Origin: Lichenostomus cassidix
Lineage: Eukaryota > Chordata > Aves > Passeriformes > Meliphagidae
Direction: 5' to 3'
Assembly: GCA_008360975.2 (NCBI GenBank)
Contig: CM039182.1
Coordinates: 151,999,858 to 152,063,857 of the forward strand
Length of the DNA stretch: 64,000 bases
Each line of letters opens with the position of its first letter. Positions within the stretch are counted from its first letter, which is position 1. Positions 29,033 through 63,395 of the stretch are shown here, one piece after another. The notes below the pieces were generated by a model, which was not told the DNA's origin, ran no database searches, and saw only the letters and a list, made by a program, of their open reading frames with translations. The position numbers and the translations under genes were made by a program.

Positions 29033-29314
29033 TCACACAGCCTCCTGCGCCTGGCGGAACTCAAACACACTGCCGCGCTCCAGGAACCTCTGTGGGGTTT
29101 GGGGTTTCCTGGATCCCTCATTTTGGGGTTTCCCGGAGCTCTCGTTTTGGGGTTTCCCGGAGCTCTCGTTTTGGGGTTTCCCGGATCCCTCGTTTTGGGG
29201 TCTCTTTGGGGCCCAAAGGTCCAGCGGCTCTGGGGGCTCCTGGGGGTCACAGGCTGCTGCTTCCTCAGGGGGACCAAAGCCTCCTCCGCCCGGGGTCAGC
29301 AACAGGAACCTGTC
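29033..29314 (-). CDS. OPLAH: 5-oxoprolinase, C-terminal exon (piece 3 of 3)
   Basis: This is the last coding exon of OPLAH, the cytosolic ATP-dependent enzyme that opens 5-oxo-L-proline to glutamate in the glutathione cycle. Read from 29314 (acceptor ctctccccag before it) to TGA at 29033-29035, it begins DRFLLLTPGGGGFG and ends LERGSVFEFRQAQEAV, matching the C-terminus of mammalian OPLAH (TPGGGGYG, then HGSVYEYRRAQEAV). Between them is an in-frame insert of 24-base repeats absent from mammals. The exon is on the - strand of contig 1, whereas the N-terminal exons are on the + strand of contig 2. Exons for roughly residues 800-1190 are missing and presumably lie in the gap at 31058-31557. Confidence 0.85.
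   Translation of the reverse strand, partial: DRFLLLTPGGGGFGPPEEAAACDPQEPPEPLDLWAPKRPQNEGSGKPQNESSGKPQNESSGKPQNEGSRKPQTPQRFLERGSVFEFRQAQEAV
29101..29215 (-). repeat. 24-bp coding repeat in OPLAH C-terminus
   Basis: Four copies of a 24-base unit (on the - strand gggaaaccccaaaacgagag-like) translate to KPQNESSG / KPQNEGSG. All are in frame with the conserved sequence on both sides. The end of the insert (caaaccccacag on the - strand) looks like a splice acceptor, so the insert could also be spliced out as a tiny intron. Confidence 0.75.
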
Positions 29315-31057
29315 CTGGGGAGACAGAAGTTATAGGGTCAGGGTTTGTAGGGTCAGAGCTTGTGGGGTTATGGGGTCAGGATTTATGGGGTTATGGGGTT
29401 TGGGGTTATGGGGTTTGGGGTCAGAAGGGCCAAAGCCTCCTCCGCCCGGGGTCAGCAACACGAACCTGTCCTGGGAGAGAGATTTGGGGTCAGGGGTTTA
29501 TAGGGTCAGAGTTTATGGGGTTATGGGGTTTGGGGTTTGGGGTTATGGGGTTTGGGGTTTGGGGGCCAAAGTCTCCTCCGCCCGGGGTCAGCAATAGGAA
29601 CCTGTCCTGGGAGAGACAGAAGTTATAGGGTCAGCAGGTTTATGGGGTTATGGGGTTATGGGGTCAGGATTTATGGGGTTTGGGGTTTGGGGTCAGAAGG
29701 GCCAAAGCCTCCTCCGCCCGGGGTCAGCAACAGGAACCTGTCCTGGGAGAGACAGAAGTTATAGGGTCAGAGTTTATAGGGTCAGGGGTTTATAGGGTCA
29801 GGGGTGAGAATTTGTGGGCTCAGGATTTATAGGGTTATGGGGTTTTGGGTTATGGGGTTATGGGTCAGGGGGACCAAAGCCTCCTCCGCCCGGGGTCAGC
29901 AACACGAACCTGTCCTGGGGAGAAGTTATAGGGTCAGCGGGTTTATGGGGTTTGGGGTCAGGATTTATGGGGTTAGGGGGTTTGGGGTTATGGGGTTTTG
30001 GGTTATGGGGTTATGGGGTTATGGGGTCAGGATTTATGGGGTTTGGGGTCAGAAGGGCCAAAGCCTCCTCCGCCCGGGGTCAGCAACACGAACCTGTCCT
30101 GGGAGAGACAGAAGTTATAGGGTCAGCGGGTTTATGGGGTCAGGATTTATGGGATTTGGGGTTTGGGGTTATGGGGTTATGGGGTCAGGATCTATGGGGT
30201 TTGGGGTTATGGGTTATGGGGTTAGTGGGTTTGGGGTTTTGGGGTTATGGGGTCAGGATTTATGGGGTTTGGGGTCAGAAGGGCCAAAGCCTCCTCTGCC
30301 CGGGGTCAGCAACAGGAACCTGTCCTGGGGAGAGAAGTTATAGGGTCAGCGGGTTTATGGGGTCAGGATTTATGGGGTTATGGGGTTTGGGGGTTATGGG
30401 GTTTGGGGTTATGGGGTTTGGGGTTTGGGGGCCAAAGCCTCCTCCGCCCGGGGTCAGCAATAGGAACCTGTCCTGGGGAGAAAGGTTATAGGGTCAGCGG
30501 GTTTATGGGGTTTGGGGTCAGGATTTATGGGGTTTGGGGTTATGGGGTTATGGGGTTATGGGGTTATGGGGTCAGGATTTATGGGGTTTGGGGTCAGGGG
30601 GGCCAAAGCCTCCTCTGCCCGGGGTCAGCAACACGAACCTGTCCTGGGAGAGACAGAAGTTATAGGGTCAGCGGGTTTATGGGGTCAGGATTTATGGGAT
30701 TTGGGGTTTGGGGTTATGGGGTTATGGGGTCAGGATCTATGGGGTTTGGGGTTATGGGTTATGGGGTTAGTGGGTTTGGGGTTTTGGGGTTATGGGGTCA
30801 GGATTTATGGGGTTTGGGGTCAGAAGGGCCAAAGCCTCCTCTGCCCGGGGTCAGCAACAGGAACCTGTCCTGGGGAGAGAAGTTATAGGGTCAGCGGGTT
30901 TATGGGGTCAGGATTTATGGGGTTATGGGGTTTGGGGTCAACAATAGGAACCTGTCCTGGAGAGAAGTTATAGGGTCAGAGTTTGTGGGGTTATGGGGTT
31001 AATGGGGTCAGAGTTTATAGGGTCAGGATTTATGGGGTTTATGGGGTTTATGGGGTT
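29315..31057 (-). repeat. OPLAH last-intron array carrying copies of the last exon's 5' edge
   Basis: Units of about 130-230 bases consist of ggggttatggggtttgggg filler plus a copy of the acceptor and first 40 or so bases of the last exon. On the - strand each reads ctcccag, then GACAGGTTCCTGTTGCTGAC and on to GGAGGAGGCTTTGG. Copies start near 29480, 29620, 29750, 29920, 30108, 30330, 30475, 30650 and 30875, plus a partial near 30960. None has a donor site after the edge. Blocks 30060-30345 and 30605-30890 are near identical at an offset of about 545 bases. Confidence 0.9.
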
Positions 31058-31557
31058 NNNNNNNNNNNNNNNNNNNNNNNNNNNNNNNNNNNNNNNNNNN
31101 NNNNNNNNNNNNNNNNNNNNNNNNNNNNNNNNNNNNNNNNNNNNNNNNNNNNNNNNNNNNNNNNNNNNNNNNNNNNNNNNNNNNNNNNNNNNNNNNNNNN
31201 NNNNNNNNNNNNNNNNNNNNNNNNNNNNNNNNNNNNNNNNNNNNNNNNNNNNNNNNNNNNNNNNNNNNNNNNNNNNNNNNNNNNNNNNNNNNNNNNNNNN
31301 NNNNNNNNNNNNNNNNNNNNNNNNNNNNNNNNNNNNNNNNNNNNNNNNNNNNNNNNNNNNNNNNNNNNNNNNNNNNNNNNNNNNNNNNNNNNNNNNNNNN
31401 NNNNNNNNNNNNNNNNNNNNNNNNNNNNNNNNNNNNNNNNNNNNNNNNNNNNNNNNNNNNNNNNNNNNNNNNNNNNNNNNNNNNNNNNNNNNNNNNNNNN
31501 NNNNNNNNNNNNNNNNNNNNNNNNNNNNNNNNNNNNNNNNNNNNNNNNNNNNNNNNN
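31058..31557. other. Assembly gap 1, exactly 500 N
   Basis: The run is exactly 500 N, which suggests a placeholder and not a measured size. To the left is an OPLAH intron on the - strand, to the right GPAA1 intron 5 on the - strand. These are not adjacent in the conserved gene order. Confidence 0.95.
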
Positions 31558-32098
31558 GGTTCACATCATGGTACCTCAGTGCTCCCAGTCCCTCCCAGTC
31601 CCTCCCAGTGTTCCCAGTCTCACCAGTAAGGTTCACATCATGGTATCCCAGTCCATCCCAGTCCCTCCCAGTCCATCCCAGTCCCTCCCAGTCCATCCCA
31701 GTCCATCCCAGTCCATCCCAGTCCATCCCAGTCCATCCCAGTGCTCCCAGTCCCTCCCAGTCTCACCAGTCAGGTTGACATCATGGTACCCCAGTGCTCC
31801 CAATCCCTTCCAGTCCCTCCCAGTCCATCCCAGTCCCTCCCAGTGCTCCCAGTCTCACCAGTCAGGTTCACATCATGGCACCCCAGTGCTCCCAGTCCAT
31901 CCCAGTCCATCCCAGTCCCTCCCAGTCCATCCCAGTCCATCCCAGTCTCACCAGTAAGATTCCCATCATACTACCCCAGTCCCTCCCAGTCCATCCCAGT
32001 CTCACCAGTCAGGTTCACATCATGGTACCCCAGTCCATCCCAGTCCCTCCCAGTCCATCCCAGTCCATCCCAGTCCCTCCCAGTGCTCCCAGTCTCAC
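31558..32098 (-). repeat. GPAA1 intron 5 array with copies of exon 5's 3' edge
   Basis: Units contain tccatcccagtccctcccag filler plus the exon 5 end. On the - strand they read TACCATGATGTGAACCTGACTG|gtgagactgg in short form, that is YHDVNLT followed by the donor. Copies lie near 31560, 31635, 31775, 31870, 31955 and 32010, and the true exon end is at 32099. Confidence 0.85.
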
Positions 32099-35000
32099 CA
32101 GTAAGGTTGACATCATGGTACGCCTCCAGCCAGGCCTGTGTCCCCAGCAGGTCATGTTCTGTCACCAGGAAGATGATGTCCTTGGCCCAGTAAATCTGAC
32201 CTGTGCAATGGATGGGGATACTGGGAGCACTGGGAGGGACCAGTATGGACCAGTATGGACCAGTATGGCCCAGTATGGACCAGTATGGCCCAGTATGGAA
32301 CTGTATGGAACTGTATGGACCAGTATGGCCCAGTGAATCTGACCTGTGCAATGGATGGGGATACTGGGAGCACTGGGAGGGACCAGTATGGACCAGTATG
32401 GACCAGTATGGCCCAGTATGGACCAGTATGGCCCAGTATGGAACTGTATGGAACTGTATGGACCAGTATGGCCCAGTAAATCTGACCTGCGGGCAATGGG
32501 GATACTGGGAGCACTGGGAGCGACTGGGAGGGACCAGTATGGACCAGTATGGCCCAGCATGATCCCAATATGACCCAGTATGATCCCATTATGACCCCAG
32601 TATGATCCCAGTATGATCCCAGTATGGCCCAGCATGACCCCAGTATGATCCCAGTATGATCCCAGTATGGCCCAGTATGATCCCAGTATGATCCCAGTAT
32701 GATCCCAGTATGATCCCAGTATGGCCCAGTATGATCCCAGTATGATCCCAGTATGATCCCAGTATAGCCCAGCATGATCCCAGTATGATCCCAGTATGAT
32801 CCCAGTATGGCCCAGCATGATCCCAGTATGATCCCAGTATGACCCCAGTATGATCCCAGTATGATCCCAGTATGATCCCAGTATGGCCCAGCATGATCCC
32901 AGTATGATCCCAGTATGGCCCAGTATGGTCCCAGTGCAACTCCCCAAAGGACCTCTCAGCACCCCAGTGCCATCCCAGTACTCCCAGTATCCTCCAGTTC
33001 CTGGTAGCCCACTGACCTCGGCAGTAGCCACCCTGGGCCAGCAGTAGCCCCACAGCCTGGTCACTGTGGGGTCACTCAGAGCAGCTCCCCAGTGCCCTCC
33101 CAGTACTCCCAGTATCTCCCAGTACCCCCCAGTTCCTGGTAGCCCCATACCTCAGCAGTAGCCACCCCAAACCAGCAGTAGCCACCCAGGGCCAGCAGTA
33201 GCCACATTGGGCCAGCAGCAGCCACATTGGGCCAGCAACAGCCCCACAGCCGTCACTGTGGGGTCACTCAGAGCAGATTCCCAGTGCCCTCCCAGTGCTC
33301 CCAGTATCCCCAGTAGGCACCCCAAACCAGCAGTAGCCACCCTGGCCAGCAGTAGCCCCATACCTCATCAGTAGCCCACCAGGGCCAGCAGTAGCCCCAC
33401 GGCCTGGTCACTGTGGGGTCACTCAGAGCAGATTCCCAGTGCTCTCCCAGTATCCTCCCAGTACCCCCCAGTAGCCCACTGACTTCATCAGTAGCCCCCA
33501 AACCTCGGCAGTAGCCACCCCGGGCCATCAGTAGCCCACTGACCTCGGCAGTAGCCGGCCAGGGCCAGCAGTAGCCCCACGGCCTGGTCACTGTGGGGTC
33601 ACTCAGAGAAGATTCCCAGTGCCCTCCCAGTACTCCCAGTACTCCCAGTATCCCCCAGTATCCCCAGTAGCCCCCGTACTTCGGCAGTAGCCGGCCAGGG
33701 CCAGCAGTAGCCCCCATACCTTGACAGTAGCCACCTTGGGCCAGCAGTAGCCCCACAGCCTGGTCACTGTGGGGTCACTCAGAGCAGATCCCCAGTGCAC
33801 TCCCAGTACTCCCAGTATCCCCCAGTATCCCCAGTAGCCCCATACCTCAGCAGTAGCCACCCCAAACCAGCAGTAGCCACCCCGGGCCAGCAGTAGCCAC
33901 ATGGGCCAGCAGTAGCCCCACAGCCTGGTCACTGTGGGGTCACTCAGAGCAGTCCCAGTGCCCCCCAGTACTCCCAGTACCCCAGTACCCCAGTAACCCC
34001 CAGTAGCCCCCGTACTTCGGCAGTAGCCGGCCAGGGCCAGCAGTAGCCCCACGGCCTGGTTGTTCTTGTTGCCCTCAGAGCCGCAGGGGACGAGCAGCAG
34101 CAGAGCCTCAGTGCTGGCCGAGCGCGGAGCGCGCAGGATCCCGAACACGTTCGTGCCTCGGACCAGCTGGGAATGGGGTATGAGGACCCCAAAACCCAGA
34201 ACCCCAAACCCATGGGGTCAATGGGGTCAGAGATATACAACCCAAAACCAGCCAGGGAACCCCAAACACAGCCAGTGACACCCCAAACCCCGCAGGATCC
34301 CGAAAATGTTGGTGCCACGGACCAGCTGGGAATGGGGTTAGGGACCCCAAAACAGCCAGGGAACCCCAAACCCCAGGATCCCGAAAACGTTGGTGCCAGG
34401 ACCAGCTGGGAATGGGGTCAGAGATCCTAAATCAGCTAGGGAACCCCAAATCCAGCCAGGGAACCCCAAACCCTGCAGGATCCCGAAAACGTTCGTGCCA
34501 CGGACCAGCTGGGAATGGGGTCAGGAATGGGGTTAGGGACCCCAAAAACAGCCAGGGACACCCCAAAACCAGCCAGGGAACCCCAAACCCCGCAGGATCC
34601 CGAAAACGTTCGTGCCTCGGACCAGCTGGGGGGTCAGGAATGGGGTTAGTGACCCCAAAAACAGCCAAGGAACCCCAAAACCAGCCAGGGAACCCCAAAG
34701 GAACCCCAAACCCGCATGATCCCGAATACGTTGGTGCCACGGACCAGCTGGGGGGTCAATGGGGTCAGGAATGGGGTCAGTGACCCCAAAACACAGCCAG
34801 GGAACCCCAAACCCCGCAGGATCCCGAAAACGTTCGTGCCTCGGACCAGCTGGGATGGGGTCAATGGGGTCAGAGATCCCAAATCCATACAGGGAACCCC
34901 AAATACAGCCAGGGAACCCCAAAACCAGCCAGGGAACCCCAAACCCCACAGGATCCCGAAAACATTGGTGCCACGGACCAGCTATGGGGTCAGGAATGGG

Positions 35001-38000
35001 GTCAGTGACCCCAAAAACAGCCAGGGACACCCCAAACCCCGCAGGATCCCGAAAACGTTCATGCCACGGACCAGCTGGGAATGGGGTCAGAGATCCTAAA
35101 TCAGCTTAGGGAACCCCAAACCCCACAGGATCCCGAACACGTTGGTGCCTCGGACCAGCTGGGCGGTCAATGGGGTCAGAGATCCCAAATCCATACAGGG
35201 AACCCCAAAACCAGCCAGAGAACCCCAAACCCTGCAGGATCCCGAAAACATTAGTGCCACAGACCAGCTGGGAATGGGGTCAATGGGGTCAGAGATCCTA
35301 AAAACAGCCAGGGAACCCCAAAACACAGCCAGGGACACCCCAAACCCCCCAGGATCCCAAATCCACTTAGGGACACCCCAAAAACCCAGCCAGGGAACCC
35401 CAAACCCTGCAGGATCCCGAAAACATTGGTGCCTCAGACCAGCTGGGAATGGGGTTACTGTTATAGGGACCCTAAACCAGCCAGGGAACCCCAAAACACA
35501 GCCAGGAAACCCCAAAAACAACCAGGGAACCCCAAACCCTGCAGGATCCCAAAAATGTTCGTGCCACAGACCAGCTGGGAATGGGGTCAGGAATGGGGTC
35601 AGTGACCCCAAAACACAGCCAGGGAACCCCAAACCCCGCAGGATCCCGAACACGTTAGTGCCACGGACCAGCTGGGAATGGGGTCAGAGATCCTAAATCA
35701 GCTTAGGGAACCCCAAATCCAGCCAGGGAACCCAAAACCCAGCCAGGGAACCCCAAAACAGCCAGGGAACCCCAAACCCTGCAGGATCCTGAAAATGTTG
35801 GTGCCTCAGACCAGCTGGGGGGTCAGAGACCCAAATTCATACAGAGAACCTCAAAACACAGCCAGGGAACCCCAAACCACCAAACCCAAAACCCCAAACC
35901 CCGCAGATCCGAAAACGTAGTGCCACGACCAGCTGGGGGGTCAGAGATCCCAAATCCATACAGGAACCCCAAAACACAGCCAGGGAACCCCAAACCCTGC
36001 AGGATCCCAAACACCCCACCACCAAAGGTCAGTGACCCCAAAAACAGCCAGGGAACCCCAAAACCAGCCAGGGAACCCCAAACCCCGCAGGATCCCGAAA
36101 ACGTTCGTGCCTCGGACCAGCACATGGGAATGGGGTTAGTGACCCCAAAACACAGCCAGGGACATCCCAAATCCATACAGGGAACCCCAAAGGAACCCCA
36201 AATCCATACAGAGAACCCCAAAACCAGCCAGGGAACCCCAAAACCCACCCAGGGAAACCCAAACACGTTGCTGCCTTGAACCAGCTGGGGGCTCAGGGAG
36301 GTCAGTGACCCACAGGGACCCCAAAACCAGACAAGGACACCCCCAGGTGACCCCAAACCCCAGTTCCCTCCCAGTACCTCCCAGTCCATTCCCAGTTCCC
36401 CCCAGTCCATCCTATTCCCTCCCAATCCCATCCCAGTCCATCTCAGTTCCCCATTTCCCATTCCCAGTCCCTCCCAGTCCCTCCCAGTTCATTCCCAGTC
36501 CCTCCAGGTTCCATCCCAGTCTCTCCCAGTATCTTCCAGTCCCTCCCAGCTCCCTCCCAGTTCATTCCCAGTTCCCCCAGTCCATTCCCAGTTCCCCCAG
36601 TCCATCCCAACCCCATCCCAGTTCCCTCCCAGTCCATTCCCAGTCCCTCCCAGTATCTCCCAGTCCCTCCCAGCTCCCTCCCAGTTCATTCCCAGTTCCC
36701 CCAGTCCGTTCCCAGTTCCCTCCCAGTTCATTCCCAGCCCATCCCAGTCCCTCCCAGTCCCTCCCAGTTCCACCTCAGTCCTTCCCAGTCCCTCCCAGTT
36801 CCCCCAGTCCATTCCCAGTCCCTCCCACTCCCATCCCAGTTCCCTCCCAGTCCCTCCCAGTCCCCCCAGTTCCTCACATATCTCTCGTGAGCCTCATCAG
36901 GAAAAGGCAAAGTTCTGGAGAAAGGTTGGCGATGAACCTCCAGCCCGAGCTGGAACATGGTTTGTTCCAACCATTCCACGGGCATTCCTCTGGAAAATAT
37001 CCCAAAAATATCCCAAAAATGACCCCAAAATATCCCCAAAAATATCCCAAAAATATCCTAAAAATATCCTAAAATTATCCCAAAAATATCCCCAAAAATA
37101 TCCTAAAAATATCCCAAAAATATCCCAAAAATATCCTAAAAATAACCCAAAATATCCAAAAATATCCTAAAAAATCAAAAATATCCTAAAAATATCCCAA
37201 AAATATCCCAAAATATCCTAAAAATATCCCAAAAATATCCTAAAATCCCAAAAATATCCCAAAAATATCCCAAAATATCAAATATCCTAAAATATCCCAA
37301 AATATCCTAAAATATCCAAAAATATCCTAAAAATATCCCAAAATATCCTAAATACTCAAAATATCCCAAAAATATCCTAAAAATATCCTAAAAATATCCT
37401 AAAAATATCCCAAAAATATCCCAAAAATATCCTATAAATATCCCAAAAACATCCTAAAATTATCCTAAAAATATCCCAAAAAGATCCCAAAAATATCCTA
37501 AAAATATCCTAAAAATATCCCAAAAATATCCCAAAAATATCCCAAAAATATCCTAAAAATATCCTAAAAATATCCCAAAAAGATCCCAAAAATATCCCAA
37601 AATTATCCTAAAAATATCCTGAAAATATCCCAAAAATATCCCAAAAATATCCCAAAAAATATCCTAAAAATACCCCAAAAATATCCTAAAAATATCCCAA
37701 AAATATCCTAAAAATATCCTAAAAATATCACAAAAATATCCCAAAAATAACCCAAAAATATCCCAAAAATATCCCAAAAAATATCCTAAAAGTACCCCAA
37801 AAATATCCTAAAAATATCCCAAAAATATCCCAAAAATATCCCCAAAAAATCCTAAAAATATCCCAAAAATATCCTAAAAATATCCCAAAAATTATCCCAA
37901 AAATATCCTAAAAATATCCCAAAAATATCCCAAAAATATTCCAAAAATATCCTAAAAATATCCCAAAAAATATCCTAAAAATACCCCAAAAATATCCTAA

Positions 38001-41000
38001 AAATATCCCAAAAATATCCCAAAAATATCCCAAAAATATCCCAAAAAATATCCTAAAAATATCCTAAAAATATCCCAAAAATATCCTAAAAATATCCCAA
38101 AAATATCCCAAAAATATCCCAAAAATATCCCATAAATCCCACATGGTTTGTTCCAACCATTCCACGGGCATTCCCCTAAAAAAACCCCAAACTATCCCAT
38201 AAAAATGGGATTGGGATACCCCAAAATATCCCCTAAATCCCACACAGGAAATCCCAAAATGTTCCCTAAACCCCATATGGGGTGTTTGCCCCCAAAACCC
38301 CAAACTCACCTCACTTTCCTCTTGTGTCTCCCAAATTCCCAGGTGTGTTTCTCCCCCAAAAACCCCTAAAATCCCCCCAAAACTCCCCCATTCTCACCCT
38401 CTAACCACTCGAACCTCCAAACCCCCAAAACCACAAAAATCCCAAAACCCCAACTCACCCTCTCTCTCTTGTGTCCCCCGAATCCCAGGTGTGCCCCCAA
38501 AACCCCCAAAAATCTACCCCAAACCCCCAAAACCCAATTCTCACCTCCTAACCTCCTCAAATTCCCCCCAAACACCCCAAAACCCCATAACCCCACAAAA
38601 CCCCAAACTCACCCCTCTTCCTCTTGTGCCCCCAAATTCCAGGTGTGTTTCTCCCCCTGATTCTCACCCCTAAATCCACCCCAAACCCCCAAAACCCCCA
38701 CTCACCCCTAACCCCCCAATCCCCAGAACCCCCAAATCCCATAAACCCCATAAAACCGCAAACTCACCCCACTTTCCTCTTGTGCCCCTGAAGTCCCAGG
38801 TGTATTTCTCCCCCAAAACCCCCAAAATCCCCCCAAACCTCTCAATTCTCACCCCCAAACCCCCAGAACGCCCAAACCCCATAAAAACCCCATAAAACCC
38901 CATAAAACCCCAAACTCACCCCACTTTCCTCTTTTTCCCCGAATTCCCAGGTGTGTTTCTCCCGAATTCCTGATTCTCACCCCTAAATCCCAAATCTCAC
39001 TCCCAAACCCCTATTTCACCCCCAAACTCCCCAAACCCATAAAACCCCCAAACCCCAAACTCACCCCACTTTCCTCTTGTGTCCCCAATTCCTGGGTGTA
39101 TTTCTACCCCAAACCCCCCAAAATCACCCCAAACCTCCCAAAACCCCCCAATTCTCACCCCCAAACCCCCAAATCCCCCCAAAACCCCCAAAACCCCATA
39201 AAAACCCCATAAACCCCAAACTCACCCCACTTTTCTCTTGTGCCCCCGATCCCAGGTGTTTCTCCCCTGATCTGATTCTCACCCCAAAATCACCCCCAAA
39301 CCCCCCAAAATCCCCATTCTCACCCCTAACCCCCAAATCCCCCAGAACCCCCCAAATCCCATAATAACCCCCCAAAACCCCAAACTCACCCCACTCTCCT
39401 CTTGTGCCCCCCGAACTCCCTGGCCAGCCCCAGCGCCCTCGCTCCCAGCTCCGAGCTCTCGCCCACCATGGTGGAGCCCATGGCGTTCTCCGACAGGTAG
39501 GTGCGCGGGGCCAGGGGGGGCAGCAGCAGGAACCAGGTGAGACCCGACAGGTAACTCAGGATGCTGTGGGGGACCCCAAAATTAGTGAGGGAACCCCAAA
39601 AACAGGGATGGAACCCCAAAAACTGCATTCCAAAATTAGCATTGGAACTCCAAAATGGTCACTGATATCCCAAACAAGAATCAGGGGGGCAGGAGGAGGA
39701 ACCAGGTGAGACCCGACAGGTAGCTCAGGATGCTGTGAGGAACCCCAAAATTAGCATTGGGACCCCAAAATTAGTGAGGGAATCCCAAAATCAGCATCTC
39801 AAAATTGGTATTAGAATCCCAAAATCGGCATCCCAAAATCATCACTGATATCCCAAATCAATGTGCCCCAAAAAGGGTCAGGGGGGCAGCAGGAACCAGG
39901 TGAGACCTGACAGGTAGCTCAGGATGCTGCAGGGAGACCCCAAAATTAGTGATGGAACCCCAAAAACAGCATCCCAAAATTGGCATCCTAAAATCGTCAC
40001 TGATATCCCAAAATCGTCACTGATATCCCAAAAATGTCACTGATATCCCAAACAAGGGTCGGGGGGCAGGAGGAGAAACCAGGTGAGACCCGACAGGTAG
40101 CTCAGGATGCTGTGAGGAACCCCAAAAACAGGGATTGGAACCCCAAAATTGGCAGTCGAATCCCAAAAACAGCATCACAAAACCAGCATTGGAACCCCAA
40201 AAACGGCATTGCAAAAACAGCATCCCAAAATGGTCACTGATATCCCAAAAAGGGTCAGGTGGGGCACGAGCAGGAACCAGGTGAGACCCGACAGGTAGCT
40301 CAGGATGCTGTGAGGGACCCCAAAAACTGGATTGGAACCCCAAAATTAGGGATGGAACCCCAAAAACTGCATTCCAAAATCAGCATTGGAACCCCAAAAT
40401 CGGCACCCCAAAATCGCCATTGACATCCCAAATCAATGTGCCCCAAAAAGGGTCAGGGGGCAGCAGGAACCAGGTGAGACCCGACAGGTAACTCAGGATG
40501 CTGCGGGGAGACCCCAAAATTAGGGATGGAACCCCAAAAACAGCATCCCAAAATTGGCATCCTAAAATCGTCACTGATATCCCAAAATCGTCACTGATAT
40601 CCCAAATCAATGAGCTCTGATTAGGGTCGGGGGGGCAGGAGGAGAAACCAGGTGAGACCCGACAGGTAACTCAGGATGCTGCAGGGAGACCCCAAAATTA
40701 GGGATGGAACCCCAAAAACTGCATCCCAAAATCGGCATCGGAACCCCAAAATCGGCATCCCAAAATCATCACTGATATCCCAAATCAATGTGCCCCAAAA
40801 AGGGTCAGGGGGGCAGCAGGAACCAGGTGAGACCCGACAGGTAGCTCAGGATGCTGCGGGGAGACCCCAAAATTAGTGAGGGAACCCCAAAAACGGCATC
40901 CCAAAATCAGCATTGGAACCCCAAAAACAGCATCCCAAAATCGGCATCCCAAAATCGTCACTGATATCCCAAAATGGACATTGGAGCCCCAAAATCAGCA

Positions 41001-49906: not shown

Positions 49907-49960
49907 CGCGCAGCCCGCCAAAAGGAAGCCCCGCCCCGCTGACGTTTCCCGCTGCCTAGG

Positions 49961-50170: not shown

Positions 50171-50224
50171 ACAGGCCCCGCCCCTCCGGTGGCACCGAGC
50201 GGAACCGGAGCGACCGGAGAGACA

Positions 50225-50940
50225 CAGCGCCCCCTGGCGGAGCGGGGCGGGCCGGACCGGACCTCCTCCGGACAGCGCCGGACCTCCTCCGGACAGCACT
50301 GACCCTTTACCGGACACCACTGACCCTTTACCGGACACCACTGACCCCTCACCGGACACCACTGACCCTTTACCGGACACTGCCGGACCTCCTCCGGACA
50401 GCATTGACCCCTTACCGGACACCGCCGGACCTTTACCGGGCAGTGCCAAGCCGTGCCGGGCCGTACCGGACACTCCCGCCCCTTCACCGGACACCGCTGA
50501 CCCTTCACCGACCTTCGGCCAGGCCGTACCGGACACCGCCGACCCTTCACCGGACAGTCCCGACCCCTTACCGGACACTGCTGACCCTTTACCGGACAGC
50601 GCCGGACCTCCACCGGACACCACTGATCCTTCACCGGACAGTACTGACGCTTCACCGGACACCACTGACCCTTACCGGACAGTCCCGACCCCTTACCGGA
50701 CACCTCCGACCCCATACCGGACAGTACCGACCCCTTGCCGGACAGCCCCGGACCTTCACCGGACACTGCCGACCCTCCACTGACCCCTTACCGGACAGTC
50801 CCGACCCCTTACCGGACACCGCCGACACCTTACCGGACACCACCGACCCTTCACCGACCCCTTACCGGACAGTCCCGGACCTTACCGGACACCGCCGACC
50901 CCTTACCGGACAGTACCGACCCTTCACCGGCCCCTTTCCC
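50225..50940. repeat. (ctttaccggacaccactgacc)n array before the OPLAH start
   Basis: About 30 units of 18-24 bases with the core accggaca, CpG-containing, run to within about 35 bases of the OPLAH ATG. They probably form most of the 5' UTR or the proximal promoter. Confidence 0.9.
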
Positions 50941-50972
50941 GCCCCTCTCCCGGCGCTCCCGGGGGTCCCGCC

Positions 50973-53168: not shown

Positions 53169-54390
53169 GTGAGCAGCTGGCACACCGGGGCACACCTGAG
53201 ATACACCTGGGCACACCTGGGTACACCTGAGATACACCTGGGTACACCTGGGCACACCTGAGATACACCTGAGATACACCTGGGTACACCTGGGTACACC
53301 TAACATACCCCAAACCCATCCCGTCAGCACCTGCTGCACATCGGGACCCAGGCCAGGCCGCACCTGTTCGACCTGGTGAGCAGCTGGCACACCTGGGCAC
53401 ACCTGGGTACACCTGGGCACACCTGGGCACACCTGGGCACACCTAACATACCCCGAACCCAACCCCAACCTATCCCATCAGCACCTGCTGCACATCGGGA
53501 CCCAGGCCAGGCCGCACCTGTTCGACCTGGTGAGAGCCTGGCACACCTGAGATACATCTGCCACACCTGGGCACACATAACCCACCCCAAACCCACACCT
53601 GAACCCCCAAATCCAACCCCAACCTATCCCATCTGCACCTGCTGCACATCGGGACCCAGGCCAGGCCACACCTGTTCGACCTGGTGAGAGCCTGGCACAC
53701 CTGGGCACACCTGAGATACACCTGGGTACACCTGGGCACACCTGAGATACACCTGGGTACACCTGGGCACACCTAACACACCCCAACCCCATCCCATCAG
53801 CACCTGCTGCACATCGGGACCCAGGCCAGGCCGCACCTGTTCGACCTGGTGAGAGCCTGGCACACCTGGGCACACCTGGGTACACCTGGGCACACCTGGG
53901 CACACCTGGGCACACCTGAGATACACCTGGGCACACCTGGGCACACCTGAGATATACCTGGGCACACCTGAAACCCCAAATCCAATCCCAAATCCAACCC
54001 CAAACCCATCCCATCAGCACCTGCTGCACATCGGGACCCAGGCCAGGCCGCACCTGTTCGACCTGGTGAGCTCACCTGGCACACCTGGGCACACCTGTGT
54101 ACGGTTGTATGTACAGCCAGACACACCTGGGCACACCTGGGCACACACCTGGGGATACACCTGGGCACACACCTGGGCACACCTGTGTACAGTTGTATGT
54201 ACAGCCAGACACACCTGCGCACACCTGGGCACACCTGGGTACACCTGTCCCTGTGCCAGCACTGCCACATCCCCCTGTCCCGATGTCCCCTGGGGTGGGG
54301 GTGGCAGTGCCTGAGTGACCAATGTCCCCTGGGCTGGGGTGCCACACCCCCCCTGTGTCCCCAGGGTGACCCATGTGGTGACACTCGTGG
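53169..54390 (+). repeat. OPLAH intron 2 array of complete mini-exon units
   Basis: Five copies of the last 48 bases of exon 2, at 53328-53375, 53482-53529, 53636-53683, 53801-53848 and 54018-54065, each end at a gtgag donor. Each encodes [16 protein letters not shown] in frame. Copies 1, 2, 4 and 5 are preceded by an AG acceptor ((g/a)tcag); copy 3 has TG. Copies 1, 2 and 4 have a branch-site-like cctaac about 25-45 bases upstream. Between them are ggcacacctgggtacacctg repeats. After 54066 the array continues with cacctgggcacac units to the gap. Confidence 0.92.
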
Positions 54391-54397: not shown

Positions 54398-54897
54398 NNN
54401 NNNNNNNNNNNNNNNNNNNNNNNNNNNNNNNNNNNNNNNNNNNNNNNNNNNNNNNNNNNNNNNNNNNNNNNNNNNNNNNNNNNNNNNNNNNNNNNNNNNN
54501 NNNNNNNNNNNNNNNNNNNNNNNNNNNNNNNNNNNNNNNNNNNNNNNNNNNNNNNNNNNNNNNNNNNNNNNNNNNNNNNNNNNNNNNNNNNNNNNNNNNN
54601 NNNNNNNNNNNNNNNNNNNNNNNNNNNNNNNNNNNNNNNNNNNNNNNNNNNNNNNNNNNNNNNNNNNNNNNNNNNNNNNNNNNNNNNNNNNNNNNNNNNN
54701 NNNNNNNNNNNNNNNNNNNNNNNNNNNNNNNNNNNNNNNNNNNNNNNNNNNNNNNNNNNNNNNNNNNNNNNNNNNNNNNNNNNNNNNNNNNNNNNNNNNN
54801 NNNNNNNNNNNNNNNNNNNNNNNNNNNNNNNNNNNNNNNNNNNNNNNNNNNNNNNNNNNNNNNNNNNNNNNNNNNNNNNNNNNNNNNNNNNNNNNNN
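54398..54897. other. Assembly gap 2, exactly 500 N
   Basis: A second run of exactly 500 N separates OPLAH intron 2 on the + strand from an OPLAH central intron on the - strand. One gene changes strand across it, which points to a mis-oriented join. Confidence 0.95.
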
Positions 54898-54966
54898 AGT
54901 CCCCCAAAAAAACCCCCAAAACCCCAAAAAATCCCCAAAAATCCCCAAATTCCCCCAAAACCGCAC

Positions 54967-57900
54967 CTGGAACTGCACGGCCTCCTGCATGGCGCCCAGA
55001 TGCACGGGGATGTGAGGCGCGTTGGACACCAAACCCCCCTGGGGGCCGAAGAGCGCGCAGGAGAAGTCCAACCGCTCCTTGATGTTGGTGGAGATGGCAG
55101 TGCGCTGCAGGGTGCGACCCATCTGCTCTGCGGGGACATGCCGGCGCCTCAGGGGACATCAAAAACCCAAAAAATGTCCCAAAAACATCCTGGGATCGCT
55201 AGGGACCACCAGGAACCACCAGGAACCACCCAGGAACCATCAGGAACCACCAGGAACCCAAAGAAACCATCCAGGAACTCTCAAGGAACCATCCTGGGAC
55301 CACCAGGAACCAACCAGGAATCATCCAGGACCACCAGGAACTATCAAGAAGCCAACCAGGACCACCAGGAACCATCAAGAAACCATCCTGGGACCACCCA
55401 GGACCACCAGGAACTATTCAGGAACCACCAGGAACTACCCAGGAACCACTAGAAACCACCCTGGGATCACCCAGGACCACCAGGAACCATCCTGGGACCA
55501 CCACGGGACCACCAGAAATCACCCAGGAACCACCCAGGAAGCACCAGGGGCTCCTCGATGTTGGTGGAGATGGCAGTGCGCTGCAGGGTGCGACCATCTG
55601 CTCTGCGGGGACATGCCGGCGCCTCAGGGGACACCAGAAACACCTCAAAATACCCAAAAAAACCCCAAAGCCACAATGGGACCACCCCTGATCATCAGGA
55701 ACCAACCAGGAGCACAAGGAACCACCAAGAACCACTAAGAAACCACCCAGGAACCATCCTGAGACCACCAGGAACCATCCAGCAACCACAAGAAACCAAC
55801 CAGAACCATCAGGAACCACAAGAAACCACCCAGGAACCACCAGGGGCTCCTCGATGTTGGTGGAGATGGCAGTGCGCTGCAGGGTGCGACCATCTGCTCT
55901 GCGGGGACATGGCAACACCTCAGGGGACACCCCGAAACCAGGAGACCCCAAAAAATGTCCCAAAACCATCCTGGGATCAACCCAGGACCAGCAGGAGCAC
56001 CAGGAACCATCTAGGAACCATCAGAAACCACCAGGAACCATCAAGGAACCATCCTGGGATCACCAGGACCATCAAGAAGCCAAGCAGGACCAGCAGGACC
56101 ACCAGGAACCACCCAGGAGCACCAGGAACCACCCTGGGATCACCAGAAACCATCCAGGAACCACCTAGGACCAGCAGGACCACCAGGAACCATCCAGGAA
56201 CCACCCAGGATCACCAGAAACCATCAAGGAGCCACCCTGGTACCATCCAGGAACCATCCAGGAACCACCCAGGACCACCCAGGACCACCAGGACCACCCA
56301 GGACCCCCCAGATCCCACCTAGGACCACCCAGGTACCACCCAGAAACCACCAGGATCCCCCAAATCCCACCCAGGCCCACCAGGAACCACCAGGAACCAT
56401 CCAGGAACCATCAGGAGCCCCCTAAATCCCCCCCAGGACCACTCAGGATCCACCAGGACCACCAGCAACCACCCAGGAACTAACAAGGAACCAACCAGGA
56501 CCACCCAGGAGCCACCTAAATCCCACCCAAGAACCATCCAGGAGCCGCCCAGGAACCATCCTGGAAAACCCAGGAACCACCCAGGACCACCAGGAACCAC
56601 CCAGGAGCACCAGAAACCATGCAGGAACCAACCAGGACCACCCAGGAACCACCAGGACCACCCAAATCCCACCCAAGAACCACTCAGGACCACCAGGAAC
56701 CACCCAGGAACCAACAAGGAACCAACCAGGACCACCAAGAACCACCCAGGAACCATCCAGGACCACCAGGAACCACCCAGGACCACCCAGGAACCACCCT
56801 GGGACCACCAGAAACCATCCAAGAACCACCCAGGCCCACCAGGAACCATCCAGAACCACCCAGAACCACCCAGGAACCCTCCAGAACCACCAGAACCCTC
56901 CAAATCCCACCCAAATCCCACCCAGGAACCACCAGGACCACCCAGGACCACCCAGGAACCACCCAGGACCACCCAAATCCCACCCAAGGACCACCAGGAC
57001 CCCCCAGCTCCCCCCAGGCCCCCCAGGCTGCCCACCTGCGATGCTCATGAAGCGGTGGGAGAAGATGGACAGCTGGACAGGGTCAAGCTGTGTCCCCAGC
57101 GGCCGCGCAGGTCCCGCGGTCACCTCGATGCAGATGTCCCCGAGGGGCGTCAGGGTGGCCACACAGCCCGGCTCCACCACGATGGTGCTGGTGGGGACAC
57201 CAGGGGTTGGGGTCACCTGATGGCCACCGAGGTGACACCAGGGTCTGGAGATCTCAGTGTCCACCATGGTCACCCCATGGTCACCCCATGGTCACCCCAT
57301 GGTCACACCATGGTCACCCTGTGGTCACACCATGGTCACCCTGTGGTCACACCATGGTCACCCCATGGTCACCCCACGCTCTGGAGATCTCAGCATCTCC
57401 ACCATATCCTGAGATCTCAGCATCTCCACCATGGTCCCACCATCTTCTGGAGGTTCTATTGGCCAACATGGTCCCACCATGTTCTGGAGATCTCACTGTC
57501 CCACCATGGTCCAACCACATCCTGGAGATCTCAGCATCTCCACCATGGTCACACCATGTTCTGGAGATCTCCCTGTCCCACCACGGCCCCACCATATCCT
57601 GAGATCTCAATATCTCCACTGTGGTCCCACCATGCTCTGGAGATCTCCACATCACCATGCTCTGGAGATGTCAGCGTCTCCACCATGGTCACACCACGTC
57701 ATGGAGGTTCTATTGTCCACCATGGTCTCATCAGGTTCTGGAGATCTCATCATCTCCACCATGGTCACCCCATGGTCACACCATGGTCACCCCATGGTCA
57801 CACCATGTCCTGGAGGTTCCATTCTCCACCATGGTCACACCATGGTCTGGAGATCTCCCTGTCCCACCATGGTCCCACCAGGTCCTGGAGATCTCAACAT

Positions 57901-60900
57901 CTCCACCACAGTCCCACCATATCCTGAGATCTCAGCATCTCCACCAAGGTCCCACCACACCCTGGGGGTTCTATTGTCCACCATGGTCCCACTATGTTCT
58001 AGAGATCCCAATATCTCCACCCTCGTCCCACCAGGTCCTGGAGATCTCAGCATCTCCACCAAGGTCACACCATGGTTCCCACCACGTTCTGGAGATCTCA
58101 ATGTCTCCACCATGGTCCTACAATGTTCTGGAGGTTCTATTGTCCACCATGGTCACACCATGGTCCCACCAGGTCCTGGAGGTTCTATAGTCCATTATGG
58201 TCATACCATGGTCTGGAGATCTCAGCATCTCCCCCATGGTCCCACCATCTTCTGGAGGTTCTATTGTCCACCATGGTCCCACCATGTTCTGGAGATCTCA
58301 CTGTCCCACCATGGTCCAACTGCATCCTGGAGATATCAACATCTCCACCAAGGTCACACCATGGTCCCACCATGTCCTGAAGGTCCCACCATGTTCTGGA
58401 GATCTCAGCATCTCCACCACATCGTGGAGATCTCAACATCTCCACCATGGTCACACCATGTTCTGGAGATGCCAACATCTCCACCACGGTCCCACCACGC
58501 TCTCATGGTCTCAACATCTCCACCATGGTCCCACCAGGTTCTGGAGATCTCAATGCCCACCATGGTCCCACCACAGCCTGGGGATCTCACTGTCCACCAA
58601 GGTCACACCATGTTCTGGAGATCTCAATATCTCCACCACATCCTGGACATCTCAATGTCCACCCTGGTCCCACCATGTCCTGGAGGTTCTATTGTCCACC
58701 ATGGTCCCACCAGGCCATGGAGATCTCAACATCTCCACCAAGGTCACACCAAGGTCACACCACATCCTGAGGTCCCCACGGTCCCCCCCTGGTCCTCACA
58801 GGACGTCCTGATCCCTGAAGGTCCCTGAAGGTCCCCAGGTGTCCCCAAGTGTCCCTGAGTGTCTCTGAGTGTCCCAGGTGTCCCAGGCGTCCCCAAGTGC
58901 CCCAGGTGTCCCCAGATGTCCCCGAGTGTCTCCAGGTGTCCCCAAGTGTCCCCAAGTGTCTCAGGTGTCCCCAGGTGTCTCTGAGTGTCTCAGGTGTCCC
59001 CAGGTGTCCCAGATGTCCCCAGGTGTCCCTGAGTGTCCCCAGGTATCCCAGGTGTCCCCAAGTGTTCCCAAGTGTCCCTGAGTGTCCCAGGTGTCCCCAA
59101 GTGTCATGTCCCCAGATGTCCCAGGTGTCCCGGTGTCCCTGAGCATCTCAGGTGTCCCAGGTGTCCCGGTGTCCCCAGGTGTCTCAGGTGTCCCCAGGTG
59201 TCCCAGGTGTCCCCACCTGTCCCCGGTGTCCCTGTCCCCACCTGTTGGTGTCGATGACGATGGCCGGCCCGGGCAGGCTGTGGTCACAGCCCAGGTCACC
59301 CAGCAGGTACACAGGTGTGTCCAGGTAACCTCCCTCGAAATAGCAGCGTGTCACCTGCGGGGGTGACAGCCCTGTCACCTCTGGGCCACTGGTCACCCCC
59401 TGGTCACCCCCTGGGTCACCTCTGGGTCACTGGTCACCCCTGTCACCTCTGGGCCACTGGTCATCCTCTGGGTCACTGGTCATCCCTGGTCACCCATGGT
59501 CATCCTCTGGGTCACCTTTGTCCCCTGGTCACCTTTGGGTCACCTCTGTGCCACTGGTCATTCCCTAGGTCACCTCTGGTCATCTCTGGGTCACCCCTGG
59601 TCATCCCTCTGGTCACCTCTGTGCCACTGGTCATCCCCTGGTCACCTCTGGGTCACCTCTGTGCCACTGGTCATCCCTGGTCACCCCTGGGTCACCTCTG
59701 TGCCACTGGTCATCCCCTGGTCATCCCTGGGTCACTCCCTGGTCATTCCCTGGTCACCTCTGTGCCATGGTCATCCCCTGGTCACCTCTGGGTCACCTCC
59801 GGGTCACTGGTCATTCCTTGGTCACCCCCTGGTCACCCCTGGTCACTCTCTGGTCACCTCTGTGCCACTGGTCATCCCTTGGTCACCTTTGGGTCACCTC
59901 TGTCCTCTGGGGTTACCTTTGGGTCACCCCTGGCTACCCCTGGTCATCCCTTGGTCACCCCTGAGGTCACCCCCTGTCACCTCCTGGTCGTCCTTGGGTC
60001 ACCCTTGGGTCATCCCCTTGTCATCCCCTGGTCACCCCCGAGTCACCCTCAGGTCACTGCCGGGTCACCCCTGGTCACCTCCTGGCCATCCCTGGGTCAC
60101 CCCCCGGTCACCTCTGTCCCCTAAGGTCACCCCCAGGTCACCCGGGGTCATCCCCTGTGCCCTTGGGTCACCCCTGGTCACCCCCAGGTGACCCCCTGGT
60201 CACTGTGGGTCACCCCCAGGTCACCCCCTGGTCACTGTGGGTCACCTCCAGGTCACTCTCAGCCCCCCTGGTCACTCCAAGGTCACCCCCAGGACCCTCC
60301 GGGTTCCTCCCCAACCCCTGAGGTCCTACAAGTACCTCCAGCCCCACTGACCCCACTGACCCCAAATCCGCCCAGCCCCACTGACCCCACTGATCCTCCC
60401 CAGACCCACTGACCCCTCTGACCCCACAGACCCACTGACCTCCAGCCCCACTGACCCCACTGACCCCACATCCCTCCCAGCCCCATTGATCCCCCCAACC
60501 CCATTAACCCTAATTCCCCTCAGCCCCATTAACCCTAATTACCCCCATCCCATTAAACCTAATTACCCCCAACCCCATTAACCCCAATTCCCTCCATCCC
60601 ATTAACCCCAATTACTCCATCCCATTAACCCTAATTACCCCCATCCCCATTAACCCTAATTACCCTCAGCCCCATTAACCCCATTAACCCCAATTCCCCT
60701 CACCGGCTCCACCTGGGGGCAGCTCCCAATTCCCCAAAATCCCATTAACATCATTAACCCCATTAACCCCAAATCCCAAACCCCAATCCCATTAACCCTT
60801 TATTCCCCTCACCGTCTCCACCCTGGGCGGTTCCCCCCTTGGCTCCAGCGGTTTCTCCTCGATCCCCCATTAACCCCAAACCCTATTAACCTCATTAGCC

Positions 60901-63395
60901 CCAAATCCCATTACCCCATTGACCCTAAATCCCATTAACCCCCAACCCCATTAACCCCATTAACCGCAAATCCCATTATGCCCATTAACCCCATTAACCC
61001 CAAACCCCAATCCCATTAACCCCTTATTCCCCGTACCGTCTCCACCCTGGGCGGTTCCCCCCGCGGCTCCAGCGGTTTCTCCTCGATCCCCCATTAATCC
61101 CAAACCCCATTAACCCCAAACCCCATTAACCCCAAACCCCATTAACCCCATTAACCCCAAATCCCAAATCCCAATCCATTAACCCCAATCCCATTAACCC
61201 CTTACTCCCCGTACCGTCTCCACCCTGGGTCTCTCCCCCCTTGGCTCCAGAGGTTTCTCCTCGATCCCCCATTAACCCCAAACCCCATTAACCCCAAACC
61301 CCATTAACCCCAAATCCCAAACCCCATTAACCCTTTATTCCCCGTACCGTCTCCACCCTGGGCGGCTCCCCCCTTGGCTCCAGCGGTTTCTCCTCGATCC
61401 CCCATTAACCCCAAACCCTATTAACCCCATTAACCCCATTAACCCCAAACCCTATTAACCCCATTAACCCCAAATCCCATTAACCCCAAATCCAAACCCC
61501 ATTAACCCTTTATTCCCCATACCGTCTCCACCCTGGGCGGTTCCCCTCTTGGCTCCAGCGGTGTCTCCTCGATCCCCCATTAACCCCATTAACCCCATTA
61601 ACCCCAAATCCCAAACTCCATTAACCCCTTATTCCCCGTACCGTCTCCACCCTGGGCGGTTCCCCCCTTGGCTCCAGCGGTTTCTCCTCGATCCCCTCGG
61701 TGCATCCGGTGCCTCTGACCCGCAGATCGTCCACCAGCACTGTCCGGCCGGCCATGGTGAACCCGAACTCCTGCTGGTACCTGAGGGGACATTGGGGACA
61801 TTGGGGACAGTGACAGGGACACCAGACATGGTGAACCCGAACTCCTGCTGGTACCTGAGGGGACATTGGGGACATTGGGGACATTGGGGACACTGGGGAC
61901 ATTGGGGACATTGGGGACATTGGGGACAGTGGTGACACCAGACATGGTGAACCCGAACTCCTGCTGGTACCTGAGGGGACATTGGGGACATTGGGGACAA
62001 TGGGGACACTGGGGACATTGGGGACATTGGGGACATTGGGGACACACCGGCCATGGTGAACCCGAACTCCTGCTGGTACCTGACAGGGGACATTGGGGAC
62101 ATTGGGGACATTGGGGACATTGGGGACATTGAGGACAGTGACACACTGGACATGGTGAACCCAAACTCCTGCTGGTACCTGGGGACAGTGAGGGGACATT
62201 GGGGACATTGGGGACAGGGACACTAAACATGGTGAAGCCAAACTCCTGCTGGTACCTGGGGACACTGGGGACAGTGACATGGACAGGGACAGGGACAGGG
62301 CTGGTGTCACCACAGGGGGCTGGTGGCACTGGGATAGAACAGGCAGCACCAGGACAGGCTGGTGGCACTGGGAGAGGACTGGTGTGACTGGGACATGGGT
62401 GGTGTCACCGGGACAGGTTAGTGTCACCATGGCAGGCTGGTGGCACTAGGACAGGGCTAGTGTCACCACAGCAGGCTGGTGTCACAGGGACAGGACTAGT
62501 GTCACAGGGAAAGGTTGGTGGGGTGTCACCACGAGGCGTGTCACGGGACAGCTGGTGTCACCAGGCAGGCTGGTGTCACCGCAGTGCGCTGGTGTCACTG
62601 GGACAGGGATGGTGGCACTGGGACAGACTGATGTCACCATGGGTGTGTCAGGGGCTGGTGTCACCGCGGCAGGCTGGTGGCACTGGGACAGGCTGGTGGC
62701 ACTGGGACAGGGATGATGTCACCAGGACATGACTGGTGTCACCAGGACAGGTTGGTGTCACCATGGCAGGTTGGTGGCACTGGGACAGGCTGATGTCACC
62801 AGGACAGACTGGTGTCACCATGGCAGCCTGGTGTCACTGGGACAAGGATGTCACAGGGACAGGTTGATGTCACCAGGACAGGACTGGTGGCACAGGGACA
62901 GCCTGATGTCACCGTGGCATGCTGGTGGCACTGGGACAGGGTGGTGGCACTGGGACAGACTGATGTCACCATGGTGGTGTGTGGCATGCTTGTGGCACTG
63001 GGACAGACTGATGTCACCAGGACAGGTGGGTACGGTGTGATGTCACCAGGACAGCCTGATGTCACCATGACAGCCCGATGTCACCGTGGCATGCTGGTGG
63101 CAATGGGACAGGCTGATGTCACCAGGACAAGGATGTCACAGGGACAGCCTGATGTCACCAGGACAGCCTGATGTCACCATGACAGGACTAATGTCACAGG
63201 GACAGCCTGATGTCACCATGCCAGCCCGCTGTCACCGTGTCCCCTGCTGTCACTGACCGGGCGGTGAAGGCAGCCAGGAAGTCCCCGGCGGCGCAGGTGT
63301 CAGGGCCGGCGGGGTGACCTCGCGGTGACACCATGAGGGCACAGTCGGTGCCATCGTAGCGCAGGTGCAGGAACGGCTCCGTGCTGATCTGCGAC
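54967..63395 (-). CDS. OPLAH: 5-oxoprolinase, five central exons (piece 2 of 3)
   Basis: Five consecutive exons lie on the - strand: 63395-63258, 61780-61642, 59354-59242, 57187-57036 and 55127-54967. All phases match, giving about 234 residues. They read [20 protein letters not shown], then [20 protein letters not shown], then [18 protein letters not shown], then [26 protein letters not shown], and finally [20 protein letters not shown] and [20 protein letters not shown] with VQFQ. This is the end of the hydantoinase A-like half and the start of the hydantoinase B-like half, roughly residues 570-800 of about 1288 (position from memory of the mammalian protein). Upstream exons must lie beyond 64000, and downstream exons in or beyond the gap at 54398-54897. 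Confidence 0.92.
55128..57035 (-). repeat. OPLAH intron array (aggaaccaccaggaccaccc)n with two exon-edge copies
   Basis: The intron between exons 57187-57036 and 55127-54967 is a 1.9-kb array of caggaaccac/caggaccac units. It contains two copies of the downstream exon's 5' edge (about 55549-55610 and 55849-55905) with acceptor cccgcag. Both lack one base of the true exon (gtgcgaccatctg instead of gtgcgacccatctg on the + strand), so they are out of frame as copies. Confidence 0.9.
57188..58790. repeat. OPLAH intron array (ccaccatggtcccaccatgttctggagatctca)n
   Basis: Units of 30-60 bases made of ctccaccatggtccc, accatgttctggagatctca and ttctattgtccaccatgg fill 1.6 kb. The ctccaccatggt core resembles the start region of the adjacent exon (ctccaccacgatggtg at 57173-57187), but the match is too short to call an exon-edge copy. 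Confidence 0.88.
58800..59241. repeat. OPLAH intron array (ccccaggtgtcc)n
   Basis: Nine- to twelve-base units ccccaggtgtcccaggtgtc repeat up to the donor of the exon at 59242. Each unit has cag|gtgtcc on the + strand. Confidence 0.88.
59355..60290. repeat. OPLAH intron array (ggtcacctctgggtcactggtcatcccct)n
   Basis: Units of about 10-50 bases made of ctggtcatcccctggtcacc, tctgggtcacctctgtgcca and similar repeat next to the exon at 59354-59242. No clear exon-edge copy is seen. Confidence 0.88.
60300..60690. repeat. OPLAH intron arrays (ccccactga)n and (cccattaaccctaatta)n
   Basis: A short ccccactgaccccactgatc run (60340-60480) passes into cccattaaccctaattaccc units (60480-60690). The latter is not a telomeric repeat. 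Confidence 0.85.
60691..61641 (-). repeat. OPLAH intron array with copies of the 3' edge of exon 61780-61642
   Basis: Five full copies and one partial copy of the last 55-60 bases of the exon plus donor lie near 60801-60868, 61024-61095, 61203-61270, 61334-61400, 61510-61572 and (partial) 60695-60715. On the - strand they read GAGGAGAAACCGCTGGAGCC, then GAGACG|gtacggg, encoding [16 protein letters not shown], followed by ggggttaatggggttaatgg filler. Confidence 0.92.
61781..62270 (-). repeat. OPLAH intron array with copies of the 5' edge of exon 61780-61642
   Basis: Five extra copies of the acceptor and first 30-35 bases of the exon occur near 61853, 61972, 62081, 62177 and 62256. On the - strand they read GTACCAGCAGGAGTTCGGGT then TCACCATG, encoding YQQEFGFTM. 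They are separated by tccccaatgtccccaatg units. The copies farthest from the exon carry more changes (TTTGG for TTCGG). Confidence 0.92.
62280..63240. repeat. OPLAH intron array (ggtgtcaccatggcaggctggtggcactgggacagg)n
   Basis: Units of 15-40 bases made of ctggtgtcaccatggcagg, ggtggcactgggacagg and ctgatgtcaccaggacag fill the intron next to the exon at 63395-63258. No clear exon-edge copy is recognised. Confidence 0.88.

Follow-up and report, generated by a model that had tools for sequence, protein, structure and literature searches.

Exon stuttering in introns of GPAA1, EXOSC4 and OPLAH in the passerine bird Lichenostomus cassidix

In a 64,000-nucleotide stretch of the genome of the passerine bird Lichenostomus cassidix (assembly GCA_008360975.2, contig CM039182.1, positions 151,999,858 to 152,063,857, forward strand; hereafter the window), introns of the genes GPAA1, EXOSC4 and OPLAH carry tandem arrays whose units contain the edge of the adjoining exon together with its splice site. 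These introns belong to exon stuttering, or sequence stuttering, a form defined in chicken dot-chromosome genes and screened for genome-wide by Hron et al. (2026; PMC12954441); by their structure they belong as well with the amphioxus 'mirages', tandem repeats spanning exon-intron boundaries that were reported before the chicken case (PMC3087553, PMC3902484). The initial annotation of this DNA had described the arrays without knowing of any general class to hold them. Very likely the introns arose through founding duplications that spanned an exon border and were amplified within the intron, while selection kept the exon itself intact. New here are the further genes, the comparison of exon edges with intron positions, the founding endpoints shared between copies, the distribution of differences over codon positions and the connection with mirages.

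The genes were located by tblastn with human proteins as queries, which placed OPLAH, EXOSC4 and GPAA1 in the window along with an SMPD3/SMPD5-like gene that was absent from the earlier finding. All edge tests are based on the 23 exons drawn for these four genes with coding phases and GT/AG splice sites. The introns examined numbered 22 (17 complete, 5 truncated fragments), and 38 exon edges were testable, the donor of OPLAH exon m5 being left out on account of a gap. Positions 29033, 52977, 55127, 61780 and 63395, which the initial annotation had named, prove to be exact exon ends.

To find exon matches in introns, we used the screen settings of Hron et al. (blastn-short, no dust filter, minimum length 20 nt, minimum score 42.1 bits), departing from them in that only the plus strand was searched (inverted copies were thus not sought) and that their multiple-source filter was not applied. 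The screen returned 53 matches above threshold, every one of them in an intron adjacent to the source exon and on its matching side (34 at the acceptor, 19 at the donor), and for the 23 exons no strong plus-strand match fell in a distal intron of the same gene or in another gene. Sub-threshold matches were found in adjacent introns (22), distal introns (6) and other genes (2), and a shuffled-intron control reached a maximum of 26.3 bits over 20 sets. The copied source lay within 1 base of the exon border in 44 of the 52 strong matches (of 53) with printed ranges, or 85%, slightly under the value of over 90% given for chicken (PMC12954441), and these ranges held no whole-exon copy among the strong matches of the 23 exons. 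Eleven of the 22 introns were positive (9/17 complete, 2/5 truncated), while none of the six introns of the SMPD-like gene exceeded the threshold. The pattern of arrays made from exon edges and splice sites, recurring at exons that are unrelated to one another and with units equally unrelated, is therefore real, as originally described.

The junction test required an alignment to cross the splice site, with an exon part exceeding the 99th of 100 nulls in which the intron side was kept and the exon side shuffled. It was positive at 16 of the 38 edges (9 acceptors, 7 donors), and all ten exons singled out in the initial annotation are represented by one or both of their edges. The donor of SMPD_7 passed marginally, with two copies and an array limit 1 base outside the exon. 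Short edge copies reaching 13-17 nt into the exon at the SMPD_A donor and the SMPD_3 and EXOSC4_2 acceptors failed this stricter null and were counted as non-positive; the last of these (13 nt, 6 copies) was indistinguishable from chance in this test. First-exon donors had arrays in 0/4 cases compared with 16/34 for the other edges, a difference that is not significant (p 0.12). With the SMPD_7 donor left out, 15 edges and 79 copies entered the splice-site, endpoint, decoy and codon analyses; a copy was counted when its alignment approached the edge to within 4 bases and covered at least 15 nt, which excluded two diverged copies of the OPLAH exon 2 acceptor. From exon to farthest copy, the arrays at these 15 edges extend over 12,952 of the 31,103 bases of intron, a figure inflated by the lone far copy of GPAA1 exon 3, and the longest copied piece amounts to 40% of its exon.

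Exon edges are not favoured sites, contrary to the anchoring at exons that had been proposed. Positions every 45 bases within introns, taken in both directions, were tested in the same manner as the edges, a repeat being counted if it crossed by at least 26 bases; such a repeat crosses 14 of 38 edges as against 1,024 of 1,208 intron tests (Fisher p 7e-11, the tests not being independent). By gene, the edges crossed number 0/12 in the SMPD-like gene, 6/9 in GPAA1, 2/4 in EXOSC4 and 6/13 in OPLAH, and the intron tests crossed come to 91%, 89%, 57% and 87% respectively. When array limits on both sides of each edge are considered, the repeats end 1-209 bases short of the exon at 20 edges and, in self-comparison, extend 11-76 bases into it at the remaining 18; the range first given had been 13-75. 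The arrays thus fill the introns, reach the exon and sometimes take in its edge, and selection on coding sequence would be the simplest reason for their stopping near exons. The rule that copies of the 5' edge lie only upstream and those of the 3' edge only downstream holds for all 53 strong matches, but it needs no exon-directed mechanism, because any tandem duplication spanning an edge yields such one-sided copies.

How, then, might the arrays have formed? Frequent local tandem duplication on a chromosome of this kind would turn most intron sequence into arrays, and one such duplication, happening across an exon-intron border, would create a unit carrying the exon edge and splice site. This founding unit would be multiplied inside the intron via single-unit and multi-unit duplication or unequal exchange, and purifying selection would preserve one intact exon and permit copies on its intron side only, giving the direction rule. 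Splicing recognises an exon by both its splice sites (exon definition), so the copies, being half-exons with one splice site each, would probably be ignored.

The structure of the arrays agrees with this scheme. In 8 of the 13 arrays with at least two copies, all or nearly all copies leave the exon at the same point, give or take a few bases, and continue into similar filler, as read by eye without a statistic; for example, the endpoint is 49 bases in 5/5 copies, 55 bases in 5/5 and 33-35 bases in 16/17. These data are best explained by a single founding duplication whose product was then multiplied by unequal exchange or in blocks, and the shared endpoint speaks against repeated copying of the exon, which should vary the endpoint between copies. 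Growth proceeded partly in multi-unit blocks, since the top repeat distances in three introns span several units (545 bp in the last OPLAH intron, 574 bp in GPAA1 intron 1 and 473 bp in the OPLAH intron 2 fragment). The 545-bp higher-order repeat of the last OPLAH intron (29315-31057, minus strand) has exact identity over at least 300 nt and is either very recent or an assembly duplication.

Differences between copies and exons suggest a further layer of history. Outside CpG, all 79 copies taken together differ from the exon at 37/932, 26/956 and 86/910 bases in codon positions 1, 2 and 3. Differences confined to a single copy are spread 15/15/16 over the three positions, uniform as in non-coding DNA, and so look neutral. 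Those shared by most copies are distributed 1/2/11, a third-position bias of 11/14 (p 0.0007, with two site pairs linked and sites within an array not independent), and those shared by all copies 3/1/2; in these two classes together, 13/20 lie at third positions. At 13 of the 14 sites where most copies differ, the exon's own base is found in at least one copy; such copies lie dispersed through the array, and in no case is the nearest one read among them. We propose, with low to moderate confidence, synonymous change on the exon lineage together with some later exchange between exon and array. More tentatively, and with the odds rather against it, the exon edge may be a live terminal unit of the array, exchanging by conversion or unequal exchange; if so, synonymous variants would pass from the array to the coding exon, or from the exon to the array.

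Several observations weigh against a founding duplication amplified under selection. The comparison of edges with intron positions cannot separate a lower rate of duplication at exons from selection against duplication, and low-complexity intron sequence inflates the intron crossing rate. The GPAA1 exon 4 donor array has two or more unrelated junctions, and small sets of endpoints occur in four further arrays. Differences shared by a minority of copies, or found in one- to two-copy arrays, are distributed 9/4/18 over codon positions, a non-uniform pattern, so that the copies are not simply independent neutral lineages of one founder. The chromosome is judged, from the initial annotation and from the repeat state of the window (about 80% repeated locally at the 12-mer level, N stretches counted in), to be very probably one of the dot or micro-chromosomes of birds.

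The strongest competing account, that a process started at the border and linked to repair, transcription or splicing repeatedly copies the exon edge outward, is close to what had first been suggested and is in our judgement improbable. Exon edges and splice sites do recur in the arrays of unrelated exons, but repeats run across the edges more rarely than across positions within introns, and after that control the account was rejected as the default. The copies near the OPLAH exon m2 acceptor are the most exon-like (rho -0.89, p 0.04 uncorrected), and the two farthest copies of the OPLAH exon 2 acceptor are the most diverged, yet identity to the exon declines with distance (p < 0.05) in only one of nine arrays with four or more copies. 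Likewise, the junction types of the GPAA1 exon 4 donor, at least two in number, would suit repeated copying, whereas the majority of multi-copy arrays have the single endpoint described above. Where differences are shared by several copies, their bias towards the third codon position suggests that the exon was involved after founding; yet at each of the 13 sites where a minority of copies carries the exon's base, that minority excludes the nearest copy read. The introns of the SMPD-like gene, moreover, are arrays, yet not one was positive in the screen.

A second alternative is that the copies are functional, as alternative splice sites or exons under selection. The splice dinucleotide is retained in most copies at the 15 edges (AG in 47/48, GT in 26/31; an earlier tally of 51/51 and 29/33 was replaced, being biased by the requirement that alignments cross the junction), and the whole 9-base donor is intact in 16 of 31 donor copies. 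However, each of the first six bases of the exon is kept as well as AG is, in 47-48 of 48 copies (those bases help define a copy), and the bases from -14 to +1 are unchanged in only 4 of 48 acceptor copies. Were the nearest intact decoy used, the result would be a frameshift or an added stop at 14 of the 15 edges, the exception being the GPAA1 exon 5 donor, and the changes private to single copies are uniform over codon positions; we therefore regard functional copies as very unlikely. At the excepted edge, use of the decoy donor at 32005 (minus strand) would add 93 nt to the exon, keeping the frame and introducing no stop. Selection against decoy splice sites was also considered and rejected, there being no sign of it in the retention of AG. 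The presence of one splice site per copy, with at most 40% of the exon covered, would explain through exon definition why the copies are tolerated, and introns so rich in intact decoys offer a natural test of how splicing chooses the true exon.

That the arrays are artefacts, whether misassembled repeats or duplicated contig ends, is the least credible account: the scaffold order does clash with the OPLAH gene and the 545-bp period may be an assembly duplication, but substitutions and indels set most copies apart, both from one another and from the exon, the pattern repeats inside contigs at ten exons, and in chicken the repeat structure of PHF8 introns was verified in raw nanopore reads (PMC12954441).

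The scaffold itself is mis-joined, a fault that the initial annotation did not notice. Two 500-N gaps (Table 1) divide the window into three contigs, Ca, Cb and Cc, and the OPLAH pieces lie on all three in conflicting orientations, the last exon on the minus strand of Ca, exons 1-2 on the plus strand of Cb and the middle exons on the minus strand of Cc, with GPAA1 and EXOSC4 sitting between them. The contig order Ca, Cc, flipped Cb would bring all the OPLAH pieces into one direction and agree with the gene order in human.

As reported for chicken, exon stuttering affects 236 introns in 115 genes, 190 of the 236 on dot chromosomes; the exon part is 20-187 bp long (median 36) and comes with a donor or acceptor, 183 of 192 screened introns vary in length, and the mechanism is called speculative (PMC12954441). 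The window introns share these traits with the chicken ones: they hold direct tandem copies of one side of the coding exon next to them, together with its donor or acceptor; the exon parts measure tens of bases; the units are imperfect; the introns are filled with repeats and the exons are intact. The rate is higher here, with 11 of 22 introns as opposed to 190 of 5,572 annotated dot-chromosome introns in chicken, the present value coming from one small window picked for the finding. GPAA1, EXOSC4 and OPLAH are not mentioned in the main text of that article, whose list may or may not include them, the word 'mirage' does not occur in that main text, and the terms 'exon stuttering' and 'sequence stuttering' with 'intron' retrieved only this article from the literature searched.

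Mirages, for which PMC3902484 cites Adh3 as the original report, are described as having splice signals in many copies, unstable length or haplotype instability, and normal splicing (PMC3087553, PMC3902484). Like the arrays here, they can duplicate both 5' and 3' boundaries, with units of 10-160 bp and AG/GT in many copies; unlike them, they concern a few cephalochordate genes and not a chromosome-wide state. The likeness meant here is one of structure and not of common descent. Tandem-repeat introns are also a feature of avian GC-rich genes absent from assemblies: figure legends in Beauclair et al. (2019; PMC6792250) describe introns of TNF-alpha, MRPL52, PCP2 and PET100 as composed only of tandem repeats, and these descriptions do not mention exon-edge copies. 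The present data add genes to a form of genome instability named only in 2026, tie the avian case to amphioxus mirages, and set constraints for its mechanism, namely that copies within most multi-copy arrays share a founding endpoint, that amplification ran block-wise and that exon edges are not preferred.

Table 1. Exon-edge arrays and other features of the window. Positions count from the first base of the window; 'screen' is the published screen, and alternative copy numbers reflect the counting rule.
Feature	Positions	Strand	Content	Test or remark
OPLAH last-exon acceptor array	29315..30977	-	10 copies of first 23-50 exon bases with 3' splice site	spans 1,642 of the 1,743 intron bases sequenced; higher-order repeat of 545 bp
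GPAA1 exon 5 donor array	31599..32098	-	5 copies (4 by stricter rule) of last 22-26 exon bases	junction test
GPAA1 exon 5 acceptor	32201..32509	-	2 copies of first 18 exon bases	junction test
GPAA1 exon 4 donor array	33004..34015	-	8 copies of last 34-45 exon bases	screen and junction test; at least 2 junction types
GPAA1 exon 4 acceptor array	34167..36289	-	17 copies of first 27-35 exon bases	screen and junction test
GPAA1 exon 3 acceptor	38141..38198	-	single copy of first 35 bases with acceptor	screen; 1.2 kb upstream of exon
GPAA1 exon 2 donor array	38289..39389	-	6 or 7 copies (by rule) of last 22-42 exon bases	junction test only; missed by screen
GPAA1 exon 2 acceptor array	39564..40879	-	7 copies of first 41-56 exon bases	screen
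EXOSC4 exon 3 acceptor	45834..46031	-	1 or 2 diverged copies (by rule)	junction test
EXOSC4 exon 2 donor array	46180..46453	-	2 copies of last 67 exon bases, 148-bp unit	screen
OPLAH exon 2 acceptor array	51977..52976	+	5 copies (3 by stricter rule), up to first 76 exon bases	screen
OPLAH exon 2 donor array	53169..54092	+	5 copies of last 49 exon bases, spacing 154-217 bp	screen
OPLAH exon m5 (55127-54967) acceptor array	55128..55923	-	2 copies of first 54 exon bases, 296-bp unit	screen
OPLAH exon m2 (61780-61642) donor array	60789..61641	-	5 copies of last 55 exon bases	screen
OPLAH exon m2 acceptor array	61781..62276	-	5 copies of first 28-33 exon bases	screen
Gap, Ca-Cb join	31058..31557	.	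500 N	contradicts gene order
Gap, Cb-Cc join	54398..54897	.	500 N	brings together OPLAH pieces of opposite strands
SMPD3/SMPD5-like gene	13511..20998	+	7 exons drawn; extra edge set	introns repetitive; 0/6 above published threshold
OPLAH last exon as drawn	29033..29314	-	one open frame	contains 24-nt repeat 29098-29201

Family and structure matches agree with the gene assignments. Pfam families above cut-off for the exon pieces were Gaa1, RNase_PH, Hydant_A_N and Hydantoinase_B, with RNase_PH_C and Exo_endo_phos found only below it and 3 of the 10 pieces searched lacking any family; sequence from the window matched PDB chains of GPAA1, RRP41 and SMPD3, and OPLAH exon m5 matched no chain. Queries with CYC1 and GRINA gave only weak, repeat-like matches among the matches listed and were rejected as exons.

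Two exons are drawn as single only because the frame stays open across internal repeats. In the first drawn exon of the SMPD-like gene, a 645-codon frame passes through a region of 18-nt repeats (14148-15104, plus strand), where further frames are open too, and this stretch may be coding or intron. The 24-nt repeat in the last OPLAH exon is in frame, and an acceptor-like CCCCACAG lies just ahead of the final coding stretch; the repeat could alternatively be a short intron. Repeat periods of 18 and 24 within open frames would suit selection for frame; taking them as proof that such selection limits the arrays was dropped, because further frames are open across the SMPD stretch, which may therefore be intron.

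Elsewhere in the window, the start codons of EXOSC4 and OPLAH stand head to head about 1.35 kb apart within 49621-50973, an interval that is perhaps a shared promoter region. The segment 24001-26000 has a GC skew of 0.77 at 41% GC, a strong strand asymmetry, and an array of about 1.2 kb at 2831-4076 is made of short GATGACAAC-like units.

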